A program made the translations under genes and the position numbers. Below, piece by piece: positions 10,619 to 40,695 of a DNA stretch of 52,117 bases (positions are counted from its first letter, which is position 1; each line of letters opens with the position of its first letter). The DNA comes from Rubrobacter indicoceani (GTDB taxonomy: Bacteria > Actinomycetota > Rubrobacteria > Rubrobacterales > Rubrobacteraceae): the NCBI RefSeq assembly GCF_003568865.1, contig NZ_CP031117.1, forward strand, positions 1-52,117, read 5' to 3'. Below the pieces are notes generated by a model, which worked only from the letters and a program-made list of their open reading frames with translations, had not been told where the DNA came from and did no database searches.

Positions 10619-12126
10619 GCGCGAACTACATAATGGCGCTCGATGAAGGATCTTCGAGCGCCAGGACCCTGATAATAGACCCCGACGGGGAGGTCGTGGG
10701 GCAGGCCAGACAGGACCTCGAATACCTTTTCCCCCGCCCCGGCTGGGTTGAGCTGGACCCGGTAAAGCTCTTCGAGACGCAGGCGGCGACGATGCGGCGG
10801 GCGATCGCGGATGCCGGATGCTCGGTCCGGGACATAGCCTGCGCTGGCATCACCACACACCGCGAGACGGCGATGATCTGGGACAGAAAGACCGGGGAGC
10901 CGGTCCACAACGCCGTGATGTGGATGTCGAAGCAGACCGACGGGATCATCGGGCGCTGGTCGGAGGAGGGGCTCGACGGGGAGATAAGACGGCGGACCGG
11001 CCTTATAAACGACTCGTATTTCTCGGCCGGAAAGCTTGCGTGGCTTTTGGAGAACGTGGAGGGCTGTCGGGAGCGAGCCGAGCGCGGGGAGCTCGCCGCC
11101 GGGACGGTTGATACGTGGCTGCTCTGGAACCTCACCGGGGGACGGGCGCACACGACGGATCACAGCGAAGCGTCCCGAACGATGGTCTTCAACATCGAAG
11201 ACCTCGGCTGGGACGAGCAGCTCCTCTCGGCGTTCGGGATACCGCTGGAGCTTATGCCGGAGGCCGTGCCCTCCGACTCGCACTTCGGAGAGGTGTCGCC
11301 GGAGATCCTCGGGGCGGAGGTGCCGATAACGGCGGTTCTGGCCGACCAGCAGGCCGGGCTTTTCGGACAGGCCTGCTTTAGAGAGGGTATGGCGAAGAAC
11401 ACGTTCGGGACGGCGGGCGTTCTTACCGTGAACTCCGGGGCCGAGCCGCTCTACGTGGACGGGATGACGACGAGCGTCGCCTGGACCGCCGGAACTACAA
11501 GCTACGAGCTTGAAGGGGTTGTTTTTCACTCCGGGCAGACGATCCAGTACCTGAGGGACCGCCTGCACATGATAGCGGAGGCCTCCGACACCGAAGGTAT
11601 AGCCCGGGAGCTGCCCGATACCGGCGGCGTCTACTTCGTGCCGGCCTTTCAGGGGCTGTGCGCCCCGCACTGGGATCGTGAGGCAAAGGCCGCCATCGTC
11701 GGCATCACGCTCGAGACCGAGACCAGGCATATAGTGCGGGCCGGTCTGGAATCCATCGCCTATCAGACAAAGGACAACATAGAGGCCCTGATCTCGGGCG
11801 GCGGGGACATCCCGTCTTTGAGGGTGGACGGCGGGGCGGTCCGCAACGACGAGCTCTGCCAGTTTCAGGCCGACATCCTGGGCGTACCCGTGGAGCGCCC
11901 GCACGGCCTGGAGAGAACCGGCCTCGGCGTCGCTTATCTGGCGGGTATCGCGCCGGGCCTTTGGAGGGACAAGGAGGACATAGCCAAGAGCTGGACCCCG
12001 GAACGCATCTTTGAACCCCGGATGTCGGAGGACCGGAGGGAGACGCTCTACCGGGGCTGGCAGACGGCTGTTCAGGCGGCCTGTCTGCCGCCGGTGGGGA
12101 ACACCCGCAAGGTCGGCACGAACTGA
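10615..12126 (+). CDS. FGGY-family kinase, glycerol-kinase-like
   Basis: A 503-residue kinase that is GlpK-like along its whole length: ALDEGSSSARTLI at the N-terminus, PRPGWVELDP, ITTHRETAMIWD with the Arg-Glu pair that holds glycerol in GlpK, YFSAGKLAWLL, the catalytic Asp in LADQQAGLFGQ, and LRVDGGAVRNDELCQFQADILG. The pocket is not fully GlpK-like. The E. coli GTGCFMLMN segment, whose Phe contacts glycerol, reads GTAGVLTVN here, and WQCRRT reads WMSKQT. A different or longer polyol is therefore plausible. It overlaps the GlpD-like gene by 4 bases (ATGA) and is followed 46 bp later by an aldolase. Confidence 0.9.
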   Translation: MSANYIMALDEGSSSARTLIIDPDGEVVGQARQDLEYLFPRPGWVELDPVKLFETQAATMRRAIADAGCSVRDIACAGITTHRETAMIWDRKTGEPVHNAVMWMSKQTDGIIGRWSEEGLDGEIRRRTGLINDSYFSAGKLAWLLENVEGCRERAERGELAAGTVDTWLLWNLTGGRAHTTDHSEASRTMVFNIEDLGWDEQLLSAFGIPLELMPEAVPSDSHFGEVSPEILGAEVPITAVLADQQAGLFGQACFREGMAKNTFGTAGVLTVNSGAEPLYVDGMTTSVAWTAGTTSYELEGVVFHSGQTIQYLRDRLHMIAEASDTEGIARELPDTGGVYFVPAFQGLCAPHWDREAKAAIVGITLETETRHIVRAGLESIAYQTKDNIEALISGGGDIPSLRVDGGAVRNDELCQFQADILGVPVERPHGLERTGLGVAYLAGIAPGLWRDKEDIAKSWTPERIFEPRMSEDRRETLYRGWQTAVQAACLPPVGNTRKVGTN

Positions 12127-35997: not shown

Positions 35998-37449
35998 TTA
36001 AAGGAGTTCCGAGAAGGAGTCAGAGTAGGTAAGAAATGTGACCACAGAGCCCTGGCCGGATTCCGAGGTTAGCAGAAGTGAAAGGGTCTCTCCGAACCTT
36101 TCGGCTACGTAGTCCCTGGCGAGCTCGTTGGGGACCGACACGTAAAGACTGCCGGAAGAGTCAAGGAGCACGGGCACCGCATCGTCAAACCACGACGTGG
36201 AGAGCGTGGAGGAGGAGCCGGAAGAGAAGGACTCCAGCACCCTCCCCCACACCTCGGAAGCCTGCGGGTCCTCGGGCGGAGGGCCCGCAGGCTCAGTGGT
36301 ATTATGTAGTTTTTTTGAGGCTTCGTCGGGGACGAAGAGGCCGGTCGGGAGGTCCAGATCGGGGTTTTCGACGATAGCCCACCGGAGCCAGGCGGGACGG
36401 TTCTTGAGGTTCTTCTGGTGCTGGAGGAGCAGGCAGAAGTGCATGCAGCGTTCGGAGCCGTAGGAGGCGACCAGTTCTTCGCTGGTCTCGGACCATACGC
36501 CCTCGGCCTTCAGGCGTTCTATGGCTATAAGGTTCTCGGGGGTGCGCTCGAGGCGGATCTCGGGTCGGCGTCTGGAGAACGCATCGCGTATAACGTAGGT
36601 GACGAGGTATTCGCGGTCCGGGGTTCTTGAGTAGGAGAAGCTTTCGAGGAAGCCCTTGTCCACGAGTTCCTGGTGTGCCGGGCCGAGTTTTTCCTTGACC
36701 TTCGAGGCGTACTTGTAGTTGCTCAGGGGGATGCGGTCCCTCAGGGAGAAGAGTCCGGTCTGCCACTGTCTGCGGTGGTTGCGCTTTTTGTCTATAAAAC
36801 GGTAGAGCCTTTTGGCGACCGGCGAGGAGAGTGAGTAGTAGAAGTTCGTGTCGAGGCCCTTGAGGTAGTCGGAGCGGTAGGAAGTCACGAAATACTCCGA
36901 GAGTTGCACGTGGGTTTTGTCGGTTCTGCGACCGTAGCCGTCGACGGTCTCGGCGTGTTGAACCCGGTCGAGAAGGCCAAACGTACCGTCCATGAACGTC
37001 TTTGAATCCCGGTGATAGAAGGCGTTTTTGCTCTGGATGCGGGTCCCGGCGAGGCGGTCAAGGGACTGCTTGACCTGCTGGTAGTCCCGCCCGCCGTGCG
37101 AGCGGTTCAGAAGCTCCACCATCTCGTAGAGCGAAAAGCCAATCCAGCGGTCCTCCGGTAGCTCACCGTCGCGGTCTATGATCTGAAGCAGGGCAACGTA
37201 TACATCCTGATCCAGTCCACCCGGAAGACCGTACCCGCTCATCGCCCTGACCGTCCAGCTCTGCTGAAGAACCTGCCCATCCCCCGAGCGGATCTCGTTT
37301 TTGTACTCCAGAACCCCCCCGCTCTTCCGGCTGTTCCCAACGGTGAAGTACGGGAGATCTTCGAAGTTTCCCTCCGCTTTGACGATGTGCCGTGTTTCCC
37401 GAGCCGACAAAGCCCCCGCCGCCTTTCCTTCCCCGCTCTCTCCCTGCAT
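35998..37449 (-). CDS. Plasmid replication initiator (RepA-type) with a DnaA domain-I-like C-terminus
   Basis: A 483-residue initiator that binds the adjacent iterons and opens the origin. The central region (about 60-290) resembles replication initiator protein A: PYFTVGN, LDQDVYVALLQI, GFSLYEMVELL, SLDRLAGTRI and SSPVAKRLYRFIDKKR suggest winged-helix Rep domains. From about residue 395 the protein reads like DnaA domain I: VWGRVLESFSS, TSWFDDAVPVLLD, LYVSVPNELARDYVAERFGETL. In DnaA this domain binds the replicative helicase. The start codon has only a weak AGGAA immediately upstream, consistent with low expression. The five-copy iteron array begins 113 bp upstream of the start. Confidence 0.85.
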   Translation of the reverse strand: MQGESGEGKAAGALSARETRHIVKAEGNFEDLPYFTVGNSRKSGGVLEYKNEIRSGDGQVLQQSWTVRAMSGYGLPGGLDQDVYVALLQIIDRDGELPEDRWIGFSLYEMVELLNRSHGGRDYQQVKQSLDRLAGTRIQSKNAFYHRDSKTFMDGTFGLLDRVQHAETVDGYGRRTDKTHVQLSEYFVTSYRSDYLKGLDTNFYYSLSSPVAKRLYRFIDKKRNHRRQWQTGLFSLRDRIPLSNYKYASKVKEKLGPAHQELVDKGFLESFSYSRTPDREYLVTYVIRDAFSRRRPEIRLERTPENLIAIERLKAEGVWSETSEELVASYGSERCMHFCLLLQHQKNLKNRPAWLRWAIVENPDLDLPTGLFVPDEASKKLHNTTEPAGPPPEDPQASEVWGRVLESFSSGSSSTLSTSWFDDAVPVLLDSSGSLYVSVPNELARDYVAERFGETLSLLLTSESGQGSVVTFLTYSDSFSELL

Positions 37450-37561
37450 TTCCTGTTGTTAAACAAAAACATAACAGCTTTAAAGACACAAACATACGGG
37501 GGGGGCAAAAAAACAGAAAAACCCGATTTTGCAGGACAAAATAAACGAAAACTTCCCCCAA

Positions 37562-37676
37562 TGCCCGGTAAAACTATCCCCCGTTGCCCGGTATGACTAC
37601 CCCCCAATGCCCGGTATGACTATCCCCCGTTGCCCGGTATGACTATCCCCCGTTGCCCGGTAAAACTATCCTCCGG
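37562..37676. repeat. Iteron array 1: five tandem 23-bp repeats
   Basis: Units start at 37562, 37585, 37608, 37631 and 37654, exactly 23 bp apart. The consensus is TGCCCGGTA, then AA or TG, then ACTATCCCCC and two variable bases. The last unit is slightly degenerate. These are the likely Rep binding sites. Confidence 0.92.
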
Positions 37677-38095: not shown

Positions 38096-38141
38096 AAACT
38101 ATCCCCCGTTGCCCGGTAAAACTATCCCCCGTTGCCCGGTA
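38096..38141. repeat. Iteron group 3: partial, full and partial units
   Basis: A truncated unit, a complete unit at 38110-38132 and the first nine bases of another keep the 23-bp register. The group is separated from group 2 by about 330 bp, so handcuffing or a second binding cluster is possible. Confidence 0.85.
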
Positions 38142-38229
38142 TCCGGTGGGCCAGATACCGGGTGGCCGGGAGGTCCACTTCCCCGGAGGCCCGGTAAAGG
38201 ATTCTGGAGGGGATCCGGGCGTTTCGGGG

Positions 38230-38589
38230 TCAGGCCGGGTCGTTTTCCTCCCCCACCTCCTCAAGCCAGCGCACGAGCAGGGACTGGACGAGATCGCTGT
38301 ACTCGAGTTTCTTCTCGCCGGGCTGTCTCAGGTTTGCGAGGGCGGTATCCACCCGCTCCCTGATGCCCCGCTCTATGTACGCACCGGACATAACGTAGTT
38401 CGGATCGCTCCGCTTCCCGGTTTTTGTCCGGGCCCGGCGACCGGTGGACCTTCGGACCGCCCCGGGTACCGAGGGGGGGCCGCCGGGGTTTCCCGCAGCG
38501 TTCTGCTCCCGACCTTCCGAACTCCGCGCCGGCTGCCCGGACATCGGGGCATCAAGCCAGGAGAAGGCCTCGCTCTTGTCTCTGGCCAC
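38230..38589 (-). CDS. Small ParB-like partition/centromere-binding protein (probable ribbon-helix-helix)
   Basis: A 119-residue protein encoded just after ParA, with the GTG start 3 bp past the parA stop. The first 65 residues are Gly/Pro/Arg-rich and look disordered. The C-terminal 55 residues (from YVMSGAYIERGIRERVDTAL to LEYSDLVQSLLVRWLEEV) fit a ribbon-helix-helix fold, as in ParG/CopG-type centromere-binding proteins. The disordered arm could stimulate ParA. No specific family is recognised; the function is inferred from position and fold pattern. It may also repress the par operon through the TTTAGCG repeats upstream of parA. Confidence 0.65.
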   Translation of the reverse strand: MARDKSEAFSWLDAPMSGQPARSSEGREQNAAGNPGGPPSVPGAVRRSTGRRARTKTGKRSDPNYVMSGAYIERGIRERVDTALANLRQPGEKKLEYSDLVQSLLVRWLEEVGEENDPA

Positions 38590-38592
38590 GAC

Positions 38593-39270
38593 CTACCCCC
38601 TTGAGTTTCCGGTTGTATCCGATACACCCGCCGAGCGGAGATCCCGGGTCCTCAAACCCGAGACCCACGAGACGAGTTCCTCTCCGACGGTTTCGTAGTA
38701 GCCCCAGCCCCGCCCGGCCCGCCGGTCGTCTACGTCCCGGACCAGCACCCCCTCCTCGGTCGCCGTCTCGAAGGCCTCCAGCCGCCCGACCTCCGCATCG
38801 AACATCGAGACCCCGATCCTGAGCAACGCCTCCCGGGCCTTTTTCCCCCGCCGGTACGGCCACGGCGGGACGGCCGTCAGCAACACCCGGTAGAAATCCT
38901 CCCGGCCCACCTCGGAGATGTCACCGACCGTCTGCATCAGGGTGTCCAGAGAGAGCGCGTTCGGCATTGCCGGTATCACAAGGACGTCGCTCCTTGCGGC
39001 GGCCCCCTCTATCTGATCGGCATCAGGGCTGCCCTTGACGTCCACCACAACATGCTCGGCCGTCCCGATCTCCTCCGCCGCCCGCTCCTCCCCCACCACC
39101 CGGAAAGGAAAGTTCCCCCGCGAAGACCACCGCAGCGCATTCCGGCTCGGATCGGTATCCACGAGCAGCGTTCTGTCCCCCCCGCTCAGGTCCGAGAGAA
39201 ACGCCGCCAGGTGAACCGCCGTAACGGTCTTCCCGACCCCGCCCTTCCTGCTTATCACCGTGACCCGCAT
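38593..39270 (-). CDS. parA: ParA-family partition ATPase
   Basis: A 225-residue deviant Walker ATPase for plasmid segregation. Walker A is KGGVGKT at 9-15 with the signature Lys9. The segment LLVDTDPSRNALRW corresponds to Walker A', and VVVDVKGSPD to Walker B. It is of the short type without an N-terminal DNA-binding domain, which usually pairs with a small ribbon-helix-helix partner, as here. The start at MRVTVISRKGG with GGAGG 9 nt upstream was chosen; the 24-residue upstream extension is rejected. Confidence 0.92.
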   Translation of the reverse strand: MRVTVISRKGGVGKTVTAVHLAAFLSDLSGGDRTLLVDTDPSRNALRWSSRGNFPFRVVGEERAAEEIGTAEHVVVDVKGSPDADQIEGAAARSDVLVIPAMPNALSLDTLMQTVGDISEVGREDFYRVLLTAVPPWPYRRGKKAREALLRIGVSMFDAEVGRLEAFETATEEGVLVRDVDDRRAGRGWGYYETVGEELVSWVSGLRTRDLRSAGVSDTTGNSRG

Positions 39271-39324
39271 CCGGATGAAACCTCCAGCTTTGCCCGCTTT
39301 CCCGACGCCCGGCAATATAACAAC

Positions 39325-39381
39325 GTTAAACCGAAAGATCAATAAACCGGTTTAGCGGTATTTTGGTAATCTGGTTTAGCG
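39325..39381. repeat. TTTAGCG repeats upstream of parA (candidate operator/centromere)
   Basis: Three related copies lie in the parA promoter region: GTTAAACCG, then the palindrome TAAACCGGTTTAGCG, then CTGGTTTAGCG. The same word recurs at 39709-39716 and in the core of the long palindrome at 39723-39774. They are likely binding sites of the small partition protein. Confidence 0.6.
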
Positions 39382-39722
39382 AAATGGGTGCTCATTGGCG
39401 GAGAACCGAAGGGCGGGACCTTCTGAAGACCGACCCGCAATCGGGGGACCGGAGTTCTCGAGGGGACGCCCGATACCGGTTATCGGTGGATGACCGTAGA
39501 GGCCCGGGAGAGATGTCCGGGGCCTGAGGGTGGTCAAGCCGCTCCGAAACTCCCCAGAGACGGTTCTGGAGGCCCTGAGAAGACAATAGATGTGGGTCCG
39601 AAGCCCGGTAGCGGGGGTTGCTTGGGGATCACCGGAAATCGCACGAGACGGTAGGACGGCCCGAGCCCTCTGTGGCTTCGGCTATATGTTCCGGACATCA
39701 ACCTTTGCGCTAAACTGGTATA

Positions 39723-39774
39723 CCGCTTCATCGATCTATCGCTAAACCACTTTAGCGATAGATCGATGAAGCGG
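39723..39774. repeat. Perfect palindrome, 24-bp arms and 4-nt centre, carrying TTTAGCG
   Basis: The arms at 39723-39746 and 39751-39774 are exact reverse complements around CCAC. The inner ends are CGCTAAA/TTTAGCG, the same word as the repeats upstream of parA, about 350 bp away. It may be a centromere, an extended operator, or a cruciform-forming site. There is no T-run to suggest a terminator. Confidence 0.9.
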
Positions 39775-40695
39775 AGTGGATGTGGCGGGGAGTTCAGAGA
39801 GACAGGTACCGGAGCTGGCCAGGGACCGAAGCCGTAGTGGTCGAGGGTTCGGGCCAGGAGGGGGCGTTACTGCGGGCAGCGAGGTGTTCGAGCGGATCGC
39901 TGAGAGGTTCTTTCCGTGAGAACGTTTGTGAGGAGTGAGTTGTTCGGGCTTGTGGCGGCAGCGGTAGGGGAGGCCGGCGGGGCTTGAGGAGTAGGCGAAG
40001 TAACGCGCGTCCGGTCGGGTCTCTTAGAGAGGTCATGGTCTTTGGTTATGAGGCGCGCATCGGCCCCGGGCTTTGCGAGATCCGGCCCGGTCAGGTCTAC
40101 AGGTTTCACTCCGGCCGAAGAAGAGCGGGTCGAGGCCGCGCCGGTGTATCCGGAGAAGCGGCTCCGGGAAGCGGAGGGCCGGCGGCTCCCGAGCGACGGG
40201 GTCTGCGGGCTGCAGGGATGGGGGATAGGCCCTGTGTCGGTCCCCGGTCTGTTTGGCAAGCCGCGCACCGTGGGAGGCGGCAGCCCCTTGCAACCCTCTC
40301 GACGTTGCCCCGGCGAAGCTGGTCTACGAGGCCTTCAGAGAGACGTAGCTGGGCAAAGGTCGAGGCGGGGCGGGCGACCGGATTTCGGGGGCGGCCTTGA
40401 TCCCCACGTTCCGGGGGTGAAACACCGCCCGTGAGACCGGAACAGCGAACCCGGGTACGGGCCGGACCCGGGCCTGTGCGGAGTTCTGACTTTCAGGGAC
40501 AGCGGGCAAAGAAGAAGCAAAAGAGGCGAAAAAGCCCGGCCGGTTCTGTGGACCCCTCCCGCTTTCGAGCGTCGGGTTTGCGGAGAGCGGTGCGAGTTGC
40601 CGAGCCGGGCGTCGCGCCTTCAAGGGGGAAACACGCCCCCCGGCAGGAGACCCCCAGCGGTGTGCGTGTTCACCAACGGGCAAGCCGAACCTGTT

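Follow-up and report, generated by a model that had tools for sequence, protein, structure and literature searches.

The locus raises the question of what a perfect 52-bp palindrome does upstream of the parA gene of Rubrobacter indicoceani. The window, i.e. the whole stretch of DNA analysed (52,117 bp), is one whole contig of a three-contig genome and is probably a plasmid. A sequence-only reading of it had noticed two 24-bp arms around CCAC, and this description is borne out: the arms, CCGCTTCATCGATCTATCGCTAAA and TTTAGCGATAGATCGATGAAGCGG, are 100% complementary (Table 1). When the plasmid was searched for arms of at least 11 bp separated by loops of up to 20, this was the sole perfect inverted repeat, whereas the number of perfect inverted repeats with 24-bp arms expected by chance in 52,117 bp is 2.3e-8. 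The full 24-bp arm has no other copy in the 3.08-Mb genome, even when three mismatches are allowed. The site matched nothing in a DNA search of known plasmids or in an Rfam search, and a search for the palindrome core in other genomes of the family yielded only scattered single-mismatch matches.

The core word CGCTAAA-N4-TTTAGCG, with up to two mismatches, occurs at six places in the 3.08-Mb genome, three of which fall within 420 bp at this locus. The sequence-only reading had reported a nearby copy at 39709; a partial copy with two mismatches does exist there, position 39709 itself being outside the palindrome proper. Its further claim that the word recurs upstream of parA holds, with a copy at 39340-39357 (two mismatches) and a half site at about 39374-39381. 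What it overlooked is that the palindrome and these repeats are parts of two strictly 8-bp-phased arrays, one proximal and one distal to parA, that are built on the same word. Within the plasmid the distal array ranks highest in 8-bp periodicity and the proximal array second, and the 7-mers common to the two exceed those of shuffled sequences (5 of 300 shuffles were as high in this plasmid, and none of 300 at four other loci). The array unit is about CGNTNNAN, and extending this consensus by the CG that follows gives a self-complementary sequence. Read on the minus strand, which is also the parA strand, the distal units run from 39774 as CCGCTTCA TCGATCTA TCGCTAAA GTGGTTTA GCGATAGA TCGATGAA GCGGTATA CCAGTTTA GCGC.

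Table 1. Coordinates of the par locus features, counted from the first base of the window.
Feature	Position	Strand	Details
Proposed centromere-binding protein, 119 aa, ribbon-helix-helix-like C-terminus	38230..38589	-	after parA
parA, Walker ATPase	38593..39270	-	Pfam CbiA E 2e-12, AAA_31 E 1.6e-9; 225 aa from preferred ATG
Proximal array, proposed operator and second centromere half	39313..39381 (about)	.	autocorrelation at lags 8/16/24, z = 4.2/3.1/3.9
Promoter-like site TTGATC-17-TATATT, TG before second hexamer, within proximal array	39314..39342	-	consensus match only
GC-rich spacer between arrays	39382..39702	.	
Place of conserved spacer element in alignment of relatives	39538..39580	-	weak in this plasmid
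Distal array, proposed centromere core	39703..39774	.	autocorrelation at lags 8/16/24, z = 4.5/4.8/4.9
Imperfect core-word copy adjoining palindrome, same 8-bp phase	39708..39725	+	CGCTAAACTGGTATACCG, 2 mismatches to CGCTAAA-N4-TTTAGCG
Perfect palindrome, 24-4-24, centre CCAC	39723..39774	.	

For parA we prefer the ATG at 39270, which has GGAGG upstream, over the TTG at 39342. A scan for promoter-like sites found one against 0.3 expected; it ends 44 bp before the preferred start codon, and the proximal array overlaps this predicted parA promoter. The small protein encoded after parA has no match in Pfam, and its single-sequence structure model, which shows two C-terminal helices, scores poorly (pLDDT 60, pTM 0.26). 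Its relatives, the small proteins encoded after parA in the Rubrobacter family, have a C-terminal block in common; profile searches of solved structures and of NCBIfam with them returned nothing useful. A comparison of profiles in two steps was more informative: the profile of the Rubrobacter family proteins aligns with that of their counterparts in other phyla (hhalign E 2.9e-19), and some members of the latter set match Pfam RHH_1, ParG and Omega_Repress. Among solved structures, the counterpart profile scores best with ParG, though weakly (E 0.21), and the partner of one homologue carries a ribbon-helix-helix annotation. On the strength of this distant homology, the 119-aa protein is predicted to be of the ribbon-helix-helix type. 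In the small par proteins of loci L050, L051 and L052, and of several loci from cyanobacteria and other phyla, an AT-hook-like RGRP/RPGRP stretch precedes the ribbon-helix-helix block.

Elsewhere on the plasmid, a replication initiator (35998-37449, minus strand) matches RPA/TrfA and, in its C-terminal part (residues 398-461), the N-terminal domain of DnaA (E 5.8e-8). The 23-bp direct repeats upstream of its gene (37548-37675 and 38096-38141) are probably replication iterons. A third 8-bp-periodic stretch, which is GC-rich, follows the small par gene at about 38113-38200 and contains a palindrome at 38135-38162, CCCGGTATC-N10-GATACCGGG; in a comparable position, plasmid 2 of R. radiotolerans (L043) carries CCGGTACCC-N10-GGGTACCGG.

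Of 39 genomes of the family, 15 contain homologous parA genes. Upstream of about 20 such Rubrobacteraceae genes, most loci display two AT-rich arrays whose word is private to each plasmid, separated by 276-484 bp (mostly 346-414). Averaged over 18 loci, z at lags 8, 16 and 24 is 2.15, 1.41 and 1.41, and the remaining lags stay within about 0.7. The 8-bp signal at both the proximal and the distal positions exceeds that of the intervening spacer (Wilcoxon p ~3e-5 each), in a comparison where the proximal range equalled that of the spacer and the distal scan covered about double that width, which entails some bias toward the distal side. There are exceptions: no distal array stands out clearly in G004, and an array is weakly phased in each of G033, G020 and G023. 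In other phyla, six periods were compared upstream of parA: 8 bp came first in Nostoc, Aulosira, Paludisphaera, Acidibrevibacterium, Abditibacteriota and Thermus, did so only narrowly in Synechocystis, and did not in Granulicella. These comparisons suggest a simple rule, namely that 8-bp-phased arrays lie upstream of parA genes of this kind, which held in most loci examined across several phyla.

The locus combines the marks of a type Ib partition system: 1) a small ParA-type Walker ATPase; 2) short repeated units in 8-bp phase upstream of its gene, in a candidate centromere role; 3) beside it, a gene that by its position and the two-step profile comparison would encode a ribbon-helix-helix centromere-binding protein. 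Known type Ib centromeres likewise precede the operon and are made up of short repeats, both direct and inverted, to which ribbon-helix-helix proteins bind (PMC5016525, PMC7308502, PMC9499535). We consider it likely, at a probability of roughly 0.8, that a type Ib-style plasmid centromere plus operator is present here in two parts, with the palindrome as the distal half. The centromere role proposed in the sequence-only reading is well supported, on comparative grounds, by the shared-word phased arrays, the similar layout in most relatives and the ribbon-helix-helix-type partner, but the palindrome would be one half of such a site rather than a site of its own. We infer that dimers of the 119-aa protein would bind the 8-bp units side by side on both arrays. 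On the proximal array the protein would shut down the parA promoter; on the distal palindromic array it would build the complex moved by ParA during partition, and a loop across ~390 bp might bring the two arrays together. Sites of this kind are known, but the wide split into two parts, the perfection of the palindrome and the conserved spacer element described below look new; no description of these three features was found in the open-licence literature searched, nor was one of a Rubrobacteraceae plasmid centromere in the literature searched. For the plasmids of this deep-branching family of actinobacteria, the locus would offer a partition site that can be put to the test.

The symmetry of the palindrome deserves separate consideration. 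When the 8-bp units were permuted as a control (p floor 0.005), palindromes at p <=0.01 were recovered in five distal regions, four proximal regions and one spacer, out of 18 of each, that of this plasmid being the longest. Several relatives have long palindromes built from unrelated words, and since the words differ between plasmids these probably arose more than once. At L074 (G061:C224) an extra palindrome of a different word (CTCCTTAGTTTA...TAAACTAAGGAG) lies beyond the distal array, ~620-560 bp upstream of parA. Ribbon-helix-helix dimers of this sort tolerate units in both orientations, and this, together with the self-complementarity of the CGNTNNAN consensus, accounts in part for the dyad symmetry. 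However, the palindrome of this plasmid is more perfect than permuted 8-bp units give, so that the array model alone is insufficient to explain it; symmetry at every base could reflect selection, the perfecting of quasi-palindromes by template switching, or a combination of the two.

Symmetry in excess of the permuted controls, here and in several relatives, is also what might be expected if the palindrome acted as an extruded cruciform or hairpin, for instance as a single-strand origin or as a substrate for a nuclease or recombination, with its likeness to the operator being secondary. Its single-stranded DNA would indeed fold into a strong hairpin (-28.4 kcal/mol, z -13 versus shuffles). Nevertheless, the palindrome keeps strict 8-bp phase with the imperfect copy that flanks it and has its word in common with the operator, many relatives possess a distal array with no long palindrome, and the array accounts for the site without extrusion; we therefore regard this explanation as unlikely. 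Even less probable is a bidirectional transcription terminator. The corresponding RNA hairpin is strong (z -7.5) and lies in a long stretch devoid of recognised genes, yet no T-run follows the stem, no terminator-like site was found across 39200-40000, and the palindrome is AT-richer than its surroundings (GC 0.46 vs 0.64). The chances of a site-specific recombination or dimer-resolution site appear slightly slimmer still: a tyrosine recombinase is encoded on the same plasmid (22333-22833), but 17 kb away, the genome yielded no serine resolvase, and such a site would not need a word in common with the parA operator. Finally, although a palindrome of about 50 bp matches known protelomerase sites in size, a telomere-resolution site of a linear plasmid can practically be dismissed, given the asymmetric CCAC centre and the failure to find a telomere resolvase (PF16684) in the genome.

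Returning to the proposed bipartite centromere, we unexpectedly observed that in most relatives the stretch separating the arrays has a conserved signal of its own. A motif search of 18 spacers attained a score of 406, compared with 277-295 for base-shuffled sets, and recovered an element of roughly AGGCCTCTGTRAGGCCCTCTGAGCGTC, of the CTSTRAG type, with repeats about one helical turn apart. Scored with a matrix built without the locus in question and its near-duplicates, against 60 shuffles per locus, the element beats all shuffles at 15 of 20 loci, at three of these (G033, G001C1 and G061C225) with the best match on the opposite strand; in G024C326 it is equalled by 2 of 60. By the same leave-one-out scoring it is not significant in G004, G021, G030 and this plasmid, whose best score (39555-39597) is matched by 6 of 60 shuffles. 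Spacers bearing the element include those of L043, L044, L048, L049, L074 and other par loci, and the G001:C1 plasmid has an additional, inverted copy at 10880-10913. A sequence-model search also gave matches away from par loci, the better of which (in G009, G014:C13, G002, G022, the G001 chromosome and G008) were taken as chance because they all lie within long open reading frames; in G014, G002 and G022 they occupy one and the same position of a shared gene layout.

The co-occurrence of the element with unrelated array words and distant ParAs suggests a reader that the host lineage has in common; alternatively, the stretch may be intrinsically bendable or may serve a factor shared by the plasmids. 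A tentative extension of the bipartite reading, which we regard as possible though rather doubtful, is a looped centromere in which two plasmid-specific and often palindromic arrays are joined across the spacer, while a host-lineage factor reads the helically phased CTSTRAG element. Were this true, partition would combine plasmid-specific and host-specific parts, and a functional spacer element would point to a further factor in type Ib partition.

Compared with the type Ib parFGH system of TP228, the locus differs in the ~390 bp between its arrays, in the perfect palindrome of the distal array, and in the conserved spacer element that most relatives have. The par promoter of R1 parC, a type II centromere, lies between its two blocks and its motor is actin-like, whereas here the motor is of the ParA type and one block overlaps the promoter. 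The division of the centromere into two blocks is shared by R1 parC (PMC5016525) and the site proposed here. The partition boxes of P1 parS similarly flank a stretch, which is bound there by a bending protein (PMC5016525), but these are ParB boxes around an IHF site, as opposed to putative units for a small ribbon-helix-helix-type partner around a ~320-bp spacer. The pSM19035 delta/omega/parS system also has contiguous short units of mixed orientation overlapping promoters, and needs a minimum of four contiguous units (PMC9499535); it differs in its 7-bp WATCACW units and separate promoters, in place of the 8-bp units and parA-parB operon found here.
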